Source: Borreliella burgdorferi B31 (GTDB lineage: Bacteria; Spirochaetota; Spirochaetia; Borreliales; Borreliaceae). Taken from it: DNA of 64,000 bases. The notes beneath the pieces are model-generated. The model searched no databases. It was not told the origin of the DNA and saw only the letters and a program-made list of their open reading frames with translations. Below, piece after piece: positions 4,770 through 55,721 of the stretch (positions are counted from its first letter, which is position 1; each line of letters opens with the position of its first letter). The translations under genes and the position numbers were made by a program. The stretch is from assembly GCF_000008685.2 (NCBI RefSeq), contig NC_001318.1, positions 390,398-454,397 on the forward strand, written 5' to 3'.

Positions 4770-4920
4770 AATTAATCCTCTCCTTATATTTTTTTTAAAA
4801 ATTCTAAATTTTTTAAAAATTAAAATATTAACTTTATTTTACTAACAAGTAGTATTCTTTATTTATAAAATAAAATTTTAATAATCCCTTTTAAAAAAAT
4901 ACTTCTAGCATTAATAAAAA

Positions 4921-4950
4921 CACAGTAGTAGGAAAAATAATTTTTCCTAC
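4921..4950 (-). terminator. Candidate rho-independent terminator downstream of bmpD
   Basis: A perfect 10-bp inverted repeat (arms 4928-4937 and 4941-4950, loop of 3 nt) lies 134 bp after the bmpD stop. On the minus strand it is followed by a T-rich stretch. The stem has only four G/C pairs and the U-tract is interrupted, so it could equally be an operator for bmpC. The rest of the 4770-5083 gap shows no gene, only A+T-rich sequence that should include the bmpC promoter. Confidence 0.4.
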
Positions 4951-5083
4951 ATCACCATAATATCCAAATTTAAACCCTTTTGCAAGATTAATTTAAATTC
5001 AAATTACAACAATTAAAAAACCCTTTAAAACATCTTTAAAGAATTAAAAAGATTTTTCACAAATCAGCTCAATAAAAATCAAA

Positions 5084-6109
5084 TTAATTTTCCATTTGCA
5101 AAACAAAGTTATCATAAGATACCTTGTCATAAGGCACTTTTATTATACCATTCATTATACTTTGCCCAATTTTCAATGATTTGTTATAAATCTCAGAATA
5201 ATTTGATTTTAAGTTTTCATTTAAAACTAAACCAAGACCATCTTCTTTAAGCCCTAAAAACATGGTCTTGCCACCATCCAAAACTCCAGTTTCTAAATAC
5301 TTTTTTGTTAAACTATACATCAATGAATCAACTTTTTTTACAGCAGAAACAATAACATTGTTAGGAGCAAGATATGATTGATCCTGATCGACTCCAATAA
5401 TATAATGATCGGGCCCCAACTCTTTTGCGGCCTCAATTACCCCTATACCAGAAAGCCCTGCAGCTGCAAATATGATATCAACCCCATCTCGATACATATT
5501 AGATGCCGTTGAACGACCAAGTCCAAAGTCTCCAAATGTACCAACGTATTGAGAGACCACTTTAATATTAGAGTTTGCATACTTAGCACCAGCTTCATAT
5601 CCATACATAAAAGATTCTAAAACTTTTCCCCTCACTCCTCCAACAAATCCAATCTTACCCGTTTTAGAAGCCTTCGACGCAAAGTATCCTGCTAAAAAAG
5701 CCACCTCTTCGGATCTAAAACTAATATTAAGAAGATTTTTGGGTATTTGAATTTCATCATAAACCCCTTCTATGATTGCATAATTAACAGAAACATTCTC
5801 GCTAGCTCTTTGAAAAAGAATGTCTGACAATCTAAACCCAATTCCCCAAATCAAATTTGAATTACCATCTTCTAAGTTTGCAATATCTCCTAAATAAGAA
5901 TTGCCTGTAGATGCTTTTTCAATTATATTTATATTTAAATCTGCCTTTAATTTTCTTATCGCCTTAGAAGAACTTTCATTAAATCCTTTATCATCAAAAG
6001 CACCATCAACTATAAGCGAAACTGTTTTTGCCTCCGACTTGCCATCATCAGAGCTAGAACAAGCAACAATAAATAAAAAAATTAAAAAATAATAAACTTT
6101 TTTTAACAT
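5084..6109 (-). CDS. bmpD: Basic membrane protein D, purine-nucleoside-binding lipoprotein
   Basis: Lipoprotein of 341 residues, BMP / PnrA-like family. The signal peptide ends in FIVAC with lipidated Cys17. Motifs include [58 protein letters not shown] and [13 protein letters not shown], all lining the ligand cleft in this family. BmpD is, from the literature, the member whose structure showed adenosine in the pocket. The ATG at 6107-6109 is preceded by an excellent GGAGGA 8 nt away; the open frame extends 19 codons further upstream but without a ribosome site. It is the first gene of the bmp cluster and starts just after the rpsG terminator, so a promoter should lie in 6110-6180. Confidence 0.96.
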
Positions 6110-52290: not shown

Positions 52291-52851
52291 TCAACGCCTT
52301 GAAACAAATTTATTATCTTTGATATAAAACCTCCAAAGCTTGTTTATATCACTCTCTTGTGCATAATTAATATTGATTCTTTTTGAACAAACTATATTAA
52401 AATCTAGATTCAAACCTCTTTGTAAAAAAAGCTCATTATTCCCAATAAGATCAACTTTATTAAAAGTTAAATCAATGTTTAAAAATTTTGTAAGTTTTCC
52501 AGGACCATTAGTAAGAATGCTCTTCTCTCCCAATAGTGGAGAAATAGGCTCTACACTTCTGATTAAAACAGCTTGAGGATTATTTTTATCTGCAGTCACA
52601 ACGTTAAACATATAATGCATACCATATATTATATACACATAAGAATATCCTCCTATTCTATACATAGCACTTGTGCGATTTGTTATCTTGCCGCCATAAG
52701 AATGACAAGCGCTATCTGTTATCCCCATATAAGCTTCCGTTTCAACAATTCTGGTAACTATTTCCTCTTTGTCGATCTTTCTGATCAACAAATTACCAAG
52801 CAATAACTTTGCAACGGTAGTAGCATCTTGCAAAAAAAAATATCGATCCAT
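52291..52851 (-). CDS. mag: 3-methyladenine (alkylated purine) DNA glycosylase, AAG/MPG family
   Basis: 186 residues. Excises alkylated purines in base-excision repair. Family motifs are RIVETEAYMG (catalytic Glu), DSACHSYGGKITNRTSAMYR, the GGYSYVYIIYGMHYMFNVV core, AVLIRSVEPI and LTNGPGKLTKFLNIDL. It is located within the rRNA spacer, 135 bp upstream of the HAD gene. The ATG at 52851 has only a weak ribosome site. The 374-bp region 52852-53225 between it and tRNA-Ile holds palindromes and promoters but no gene. Confidence 0.93.
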   Translation of the reverse strand: MDRYFFLQDATTVAKLLLGNLLIRKIDKEEIVTRIVETEAYMGITDSACHSYGGKITNRTSAMYRIGGYSYVYIIYGMHYMFNVVTADKNNPQAVLIRSVEPISPLLGEKSILTNGPGKLTKFLNIDLTFNKVDLIGNNELFLQRGLNLDFNIVCSKRININYAQESDINKLWRFYIKDNKFVSRR

Positions 52852-53002
52852 AAGCTCAATTTTAAAACAAAATAATAATAAAAATTATTACCAAAACACA
52901 CATGTAAAATATGAAAACATATTGCCTAGAATAAAAATAAAAACTAAAATCATTTAATCACCCAGTAAATACATATTTTAAATAAATTCTTGGTTGATTA
53001 AT

Positions 53003-53056
53003 AAATTTTTTTGATTTTTAATCAAAAAAATTTAAAAAGTTGAACTAGTTCAACTT
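53003..53056. repeat. Hairpin and 20-bp palindrome in the mag/tRNA-Ile gap
   Basis: A perfect 14-bp inverted repeat (53003-53016 / 53020-53033, 3-nt loop, with T- and A-runs) is followed 4 bp later by a perfect 20-bp palindrome at 53037-53056 centred on ACTAGT. The first could terminate transcription; the second has no loop and looks like a dimeric-protein site. Confidence 0.45.
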
Positions 53057-53137
53057 AAATCAGCTTATATGAAAATGCTAATCTAAAATACAAAATATCG
53101 AATATTGACAAATATATAAAAAATTATAAACTATATG

Positions 53138-53176
53138 CAATATCTCTTACATCTTGAAAAGATATAAGAGATATTG
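53138..53176 (+). promoter_or_regulatory. Long hairpin overlapping the tRNA-Ile promoter
   Basis: Arms of 12 bp (53138-53149 and 53165-53176) extended after one mismatch by an inner 5-bp stem. The right arm reaches into the -35 hexamer (53174-53179), so it could be an operator. A second TTGACA at about 53105-53110 with TAAACT 16 bp later lies upstream. Confidence 0.4.
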
Positions 53177-53202
53177 ACAAAATCATAAGATTTAAATAAA
53201 AT
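53174..53202 (+). promoter_or_regulatory. Promoter of tRNA-Ile
   Basis: TTGACA (53174-53179), 17-bp spacer, TAAAAT (53197-53202) predicts a start near 53209, about 17 nt before the mature tRNA end. Confidence 0.7.
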
Positions 53203-53225
53203 TTGTAAAGAATTGATATGCTTAA

Positions 53226-53299
53226 GGGATCATAGCTCAGGTGGTTAGAGCGCAGGTCTGATAAACCTGAGGTCGGATGTTCAACTCATCCTGGTCCCA
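53226..53299 (+). tRNA. trnI: tRNA-Ile (anticodon GAT)
   Basis: 74-nt cloverleaf on the plus strand, opposite to all rRNA genes. Acceptor GGGATCA/TGGTCCC with discriminator A; D-arm GCTCAGGTGGTTAGAGC; anticodon stem CAGGT/ACCTG with loop CTGATAA gives GAT; T-arm GGATG TTCAACT CATCC. No CCA is encoded. Confidence 0.95.
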
Positions 53300-53365
53300 A
53301 TGTATTCCATTGTTTTAATTACGACAATACTGTTTTAAGCTATAATTAATAAGAAAAACAAAAAT

Positions 53366-53880
53366 TTATTCAATTTCTATATTAAGGTATACACGATTAC
53401 TAACAATTACAACTTCATGCCATTGAGTGTCGGGCAAATCCAAACTGAAATCTGCTTTATGGTATTTTGCTTGGCTTTTTTGAGTTATTGTTGCAAACTT
53501 GTAACCTAAAACATAAGAGCGATAACGATTTAATGCAATCTTTGCCTTCCTCCAACTTATAACTGGCAATCTTATCCGAATCCCTACCACTAAATACTGG
53601 CAACGATAATAAGGATTTAAGCTCGCTACAATACTTGTCCTTCTCTCAGACATCACACTTAGTAATCTACATTATTTCCTAACTAAAAACTATTTACTAA
53701 ATGCAGATCGTTTATAAAATAGGCTGCTGAAAAATACAATCCTGTTTAATCCTTGCACTTTAGCGAAACAACTTCGGGTTTTATCGAAAGCTTGCTTTTG
53801 CTTCTAGACATTTTTCTTAATATCAACAGATCTCAACTTAACCCAGAAATTTTAACTTCTTGTGTTTCACATTCCAACAA
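53366..53880 (-). pseudogene. Degenerate 16S rRNA gene remnant
   Basis: The stretch aligns co-linearly and in the same orientation with the intact 16S gene 0.8 kb away. Its 53383-53640 part matches 54369-54636, with shared runs such as CGATTACTA, CAACTTCATG, CTGCTTTATG, CCTTCCTCC and GACATAAG-like blocks. After a gap of about 215 nt (54637-54850 missing), 53654-53880 matches about 54853-55090, with AATCCTGTTT, TATCAACAGAT, CCAGAAAT and TTCCAAC. Identity is perhaps 60-70% by eye with many transitions toward A/T, so it is non-functional. A 96-codon open frame at 53366-53656 on the minus strand lies entirely inside and is not credible as a protein. Confidence 0.8.
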
Positions 53881-53938
53881 TTACTTTAACAAAGTTACTT
53901 AAAAACATACTTAATTACAATTTAGGGCATAAGCCCAA

Positions 53939-54012
53939 TGGAGGTTAAGGGACTCGAACCCTTGACCCTCGGCTTGCAAAGCCGATGCTCTAGCCAACTG
54001 AGCTAAACCCCC
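53939..54012 (-). tRNA. trnA: tRNA-Ala (anticodon TGC)
   Basis: 74-nt cloverleaf on the minus strand. Acceptor GGGGGTT/AACCTCC with discriminator A; D-arm GCTCAGTTGGCTAGAGC; anticodon stem TCGGC/GCCGA with loop TTTGCAA gives TGC; T-arm AAGGGTTCGAGTCCCTT. It lies 171 bp after 16S and is likely on the same transcript. Confidence 0.96.
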
Positions 54013-54135
54013 AAAATGACCTAAAATTAAGTCTAAGCCTAATAAAACTATTTAATATCAATAATTTAATACATAAACTTCTCTTAAACTTACATAAATA
54101 ACACTGGTTTTAAAAACTCTCTTATCAAAAGAAAA

Positions 54136-54152
54136 GAGTAGGGAAGAGTTAA
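54136..54152 (-). other. 16S rRNA processing stem, 3' arm
   Basis: The 12-nt block 54141-54152 (GGGAAGAGTTAA on the plus strand) is the exact reverse complement of 55781-55792 on the far side of 16S, and pairing continues imperfectly outward. This is the usual stalk cut by RNase III to release pre-16S. Confidence 0.6.
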
Positions 54153-54183
54153 TGGAATTAGCCTTAGTTTATCTTTCTCTTAG

Positions 54184-55721
<1,538 letters not shown>

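Follow-up and report, generated by a model that had tools for sequence, protein, structure and literature searches.

A 16S rRNA pseudogene in the rRNA locus of Borreliella burgdorferi B31 and its decay across the genus

Layout of the rRNA locus and the 16S-like interval

The window analyzed is a 64,000-nt stretch of Borreliella burgdorferi B31 DNA (NC_001318.1, positions 390,398 to 454,397), and all positions below are numbered from its first letter. Read along the minus strand, its rRNA locus consists of a 16S rRNA gene, tRNA-Ala, an interval described below as a pseudogene, tRNA-Ile on the opposite strand, two protein genes, and then 23S-5S twice. The intact 16S rRNA gene (54184-55721, minus strand) scores 1537.3 bits with the Rfam small-subunit (SSU) model RF00177. 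tRNA-Ala(TGC) (53938-54013, minus strand) separates this gene from its sister copy, while tRNA-Ile(GAT) (53226-53299, plus strand) forms the far edge of the pseudogene interval.

Within this interval, the minus strand of 53389-53894 is co-linear with 16S rRNA in two blocks of the same orientation as the 16S gene. These include: (i) block 1 (53389-53636), which corresponds to 16S nt 1085-1352 (182/247 identical, 73.7%), and (ii) block 2 (53669-53894), which corresponds to 16S nt 629-860 (149/223 identical, 66.8%). Between the blocks lies a junction on the same strand (53637-53668), an alignment gap at which 32 nt stand in place of the 224 nt of 16S nt 861-1084. The remainder from tRNA-Ala to block 2 (53895-53937, minus strand) is the site at which a duplicated 16S promoter/leader is found in better-preserved species. 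The original prediction of a remnant spanning 16S nt 630-1380 with about 215 nt deleted was, thus, nearly right and is refined here to nt 629-860 plus 1085-1352 with 224 nt lost.

The predicted co-linearity is borne out by pairwise alignment with shuffled controls. The minus strand of 53300-53937 aligns to the intact 16S with a Smith-Waterman score of 192, far above that of 1000 dinucleotide shuffles of the same interval (32.9 ± 3.9, maximum 47), and the opposite strand scores only 30. Each block is significant alone, with scores of 192 for block 1 (shuffled 29 ± 4, maximum 45) and 106 for block 2 (shuffled 29 ± 4, maximum 48). Elsewhere in the window, no 638-base stretch scores above 54 against 16S; the one that reaches this score, near 4801-5438, was rejected as a short A+T-rich match. 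The parts of 16S that are not recognizable in the B31 remnant by alignment are nt 1-628, 861-1084 and 1353-1538. The proposed check with an SSU covariance model was negative for the B31 remnant, as RF00177 has no match in 52850-54170 even at E ≤ 1 and its gathering score is not reached; the same model finds the orthologous copy in nine congeners. The promoter/leader remnant of B31 is not significant alone (leader-like score 32 versus a shuffled maximum of 42), nor is the trailer remnant, whereas the corresponding leader-like scores are 67 in B. lusitaniae (shuffled maximum 38) and 70 in B. afzelii (shuffled maximum 45). Plasmid records searched with the B31 remnant gave no match.

A 96-codon reading frame with a GTG start (53366-53656, minus strand) runs across the pseudogene and is open in B31, and a small protein might be read from it. 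This coding alternative is barely credible, since the frame lies mostly within the 16S homology and is not intact in relatives: G007 (B. finlandensis-like), the nearest of them, has two in-frame stops, and the next three genomes have frameshifts. Differences from G007 across the codon positions number 13, 8 and 8 of 97, with no enrichment at the third. With the frame broken in each of the four genomes closest to B31, a 96-codon protein gene is ruled out, and any hypothetical protein called at these positions would be explained by the pseudogene, as had been anticipated. One spurious reading frame is, thus, removed from consideration.

The second 16S in related genomes

A second 16S lies between tRNA-Ala and tRNA-Ile, in the orientation of the 16S gene, in 15 of the 16 Borreliella congeners with an assembled locus, in agreement with the expectation that relatives would share the decay. 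RF00177 detects it at this place in nine congeners and reaches the gathering score in seven. Compared to the approximately 1540 bits of intact 16S genes, the second copies grade from 909.8 bits in B. lusitaniae (near full length), 648.7 in B. afzelii and 531 in B. spielmanii, through 294 in B. turdi, 221 in B. tanukii, 135 in another Borreliella and 115 in B. garinii, to 35 in one more Borreliella and 28.6 in B. maritima. By the same model, none of the 18 sister-genus (relapsing-fever) genomes contains a second 16S match; in the sister-genus loci L077-L080, tRNA-Ala to tRNA-Ile spans 298 to 3160 nt without 16S homology.

When the intervals between tRNA-Ala and tRNA-Ile are all aligned, seven genomes, including B. 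burgdorferi, are found to be without 16S nt 1 to about 630 and without the middle piece, such that the middle deletion of the B. burgdorferi remnant is common to six related genomes. Five of these seven, B. burgdorferi among them, are also missing the 3' end. From these nested, shared deletions, the intervals are recognized as stages in the decay of a single ancestral insert.

In B. chilensis, the 16S and tRNA-Ile are only 246 nt apart, with neither tRNA-Ala nor a second 16S between them. A search of the whole B. chilensis genome found tRNA-Ala absent elsewhere, with only weak matches to tRNA-Met and tRNA-Arg. Either the assembly collapsed across the repeated 16S trailers, or the loss is real, which would be puzzling.

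A decayed second 16S is of a kind already known. The rrsB of B. afzelii and B. garinii is termed a pseudogene in the paper on B. afzelii K78, which cites Ojaimi et al. 1994, credits B. burgdorferi with one 16S copy and notes in a figure legend that one copy is degenerated in many cases (PMC4370689). Like rrsB, the B. burgdorferi remnant is positioned after tRNA-Ala and before the opposite-strand tRNA-Ile, has the same orientation, and is decayed and A+T-enriched. By contrast to rrsB, it keeps only 16S nt 629-860 and 1085-1352 at 67-74% identity and is missed by the Rfam SSU model; B. burgdorferi, thus, adds a much-decayed case. We consider it nearly certain (a probability of about 0.96) that the interval is a 16S rRNA pseudogene orthologous to the rrsB of B. 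afzelii and B. garinii, derived from a duplicated 16S unit that later decayed.

The duplicated unit and its origin

Self-comparison of the better-preserved loci reveals that the repeated unit starts at a TTGACA-containing region about 140 nt upstream of the 16S and ends just before tRNA-Ala. A second tRNA-Ala remnant is not detectable. From these boundaries and the missing second tRNA-Ala, the duplicated unit is concluded to be the promoter region, the 16S and its trailer. The duplicate of this unit came to be located between tRNA-Ala and tRNA-Ile, most likely in the Borreliella ancestor after the split from the relapsing-fever genus. Being redundant, the extra 16S was freed from constraint and has decayed through G+C to A+T substitutions and through deletions, which are not the same in every lineage.

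The timing is read from the sequences of the copies. Fourteen sites have fixed differences between the genera, and the ratio of Borreliella to relapsing-fever states in the copies is 12:0 (B. lusitaniae) and 12:2 (B. afzelii), which favors an origin after the genus split. A tree likewise puts the second copies among Borreliella 16S genes; a constrained tree in which the copies predate the split of the genera scores 9.8 log units lower, a difference short of rejection (AU p = 0.19). Gene conversion could make old copies look young.

The B. lusitaniae copy has features of such an exchange. Compared to the 16S of its own genome, the copy has only 3 differences per 200 sites at 547-746 and up to 39 elsewhere, a low-difference stretch that was never reached in 2000 shuffles. 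The ends of the copy differ from intact 16S by 15-25%, and the copy carries two variants particular to the 16S of that species. The 5' alignment is uneven in some other second copies too. The 547-746 tract suggests a recent gene conversion event. Continued sequence exchange between the decaying copy and the functional 16S is a tentative and rather doubtful proposition. If it is true, rRNA gene conversion could draw on such copies as donors or act on them as recipients, and they could give rise to deletions in which tRNA-Ala is lost, a possibility to which the B. chilensis assembly might point.

The tandem 23S-5S raises the question of how much of the locus was duplicated at once. At least two 23S genes are present in every Borreliella genome whose assembly is continuous across this locus, compared to a single one in every genome of the sister genus; thus, the 16S and 23S-5S duplications have the same spread. 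The duplication of 23S and 5S is described as particular to the Lyme group in an account of a third lineage (PMC7327063). The original prediction was that an entire rRNA operon had been duplicated, with later decay of the extra 16S. A single event of this kind, covering 16S-tRNA-23S-5S, accords with the presence of both second copies in Borreliella and of neither in the sister genus. This scenario is unlikely and was not supported, as the duplicated unit stops before tRNA-Ala with no second tRNA-Ala remnant detected, several kilobases that include the tRNAs and protein genes separate the 16S from the 23S in either genus, and one operon-wide event needs several precise losses to yield the order 16S-Ala-16S'-Ile-23S-5S-23S-5S. 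Two local tandem duplications, one of the 16S unit and one of 23S-5S, fit the layout better and more simply, and are preferred because the 16S and 23S are already separated in this manner in the sister genus, which has one 16S and one 23S. While the pseudogene resembles the tandem 23S-5S duplication of Lyme-group Borreliella in locus and taxonomic spread, the 23S-5S copies are about 99% identical in most species, whereas the extra 16S decays freely.

Two departures from the usual tandem pair of 23S genes were observed. In B. andersonii (G003, C1:433203-436136), the second 23S is 94% identical to the first and scores 2272 bits versus about 2773 bits, and appears to be either starting to decay or an assembly error. 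One Borreliella genome (G002, C1:61175-73824) has four tandem 23S copies instead of two.

Present state of the remnant and the rrs-rrlA typing locus

The B31 pseudogene differs from those of the four nearest genomes at 8.2, 18.6, 21.7 and 22.1% of sites, while the same four comparisons give 0.1-0.9% for 16S and a dS of 0.055-0.23 for neighboring genes. The divergence of the pseudogene, thus, about equals or exceeds that of neighboring synonymous sites. In B31, 152 changes run from G+C to A+T and 51 in the opposite direction (3:1), a bias that, together with the alignment, supports the prediction of an extra 16S gene that has drifted toward A+T. Base pairs predicted from 16S are retained only at the shuffled expectation, in B31 as well as in all the other species tested. 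Of 14 two-sided pair changes in block 1 of B31, 10 restore pairing; however, total pairing is no better than shuffled. With its large deletions and null-level pairing, the B31 remnant cannot make a functional 16S.

The remnant could instead have been retained for a role as a regulatory RNA or as a structured spacer in rRNA processing, given its position just downstream of the 16S-tRNA-Ala transcript and the pair changes in block 1 that restore pairing. Such a role is very improbable, since divergence is about equal to or above that of synonymous sites, the pairs kept are at the null level in every species, deletions vary between lineages, and RT-PCR of strains N40 and B31 found no product spanning tRNA-Ala to tRNA-Ile (PMC3037291). 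The same study detected a 16S-tRNA-Ala transcript and placed tRNA-Ile on a separate transcript (PMC3037291). Considering its neutral rates, its lost pairing and the RT-PCR results, which bear on interval-spanning transcripts only, the remnant is probably without function now.

The rrs-rrlA intergenic spacer (IGS) locus is a stretch widely used to type Lyme bacteria, and its amplicon spans the exact pseudogene interval. The outer rrs-rrlA primers (PMC4763156) fall at 54235-54255 and 53227-53248, which delimits a product of 1029 nt (53227-54255), of which 506 nt (49%) are the 16S pseudogene. While described as an intergenic spacer, the locus is, thus, largely a 16S pseudogene, a statement not found in the open literature searched. 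The same literature yielded no description of the B. burgdorferi remnant. As far as found, what is new includes the B. burgdorferi remnant, the genus-wide decay series, the unit boundaries, the probable gene-conversion tract of B. lusitaniae and the finding that the remnant makes up 49% of the rrs-rrlA amplicon.

The pseudogene explains a peculiarity of the Lyme spirochaete rRNA locus, namely a gap of unusual length and variability. Since half of the rrs-rrlA amplicon is a freely decaying 16S copy, the high variability and the indels of this marker are also accounted for. In species with well-kept copies, such as B. lusitaniae, B. afzelii and B. spielmanii, 16S assays and amplicon surveys may detect the pseudogene. 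Across Borreliella, the second copies capture, in a single genus, graded stages in the death of a bacterial rRNA gene at one fixed site.
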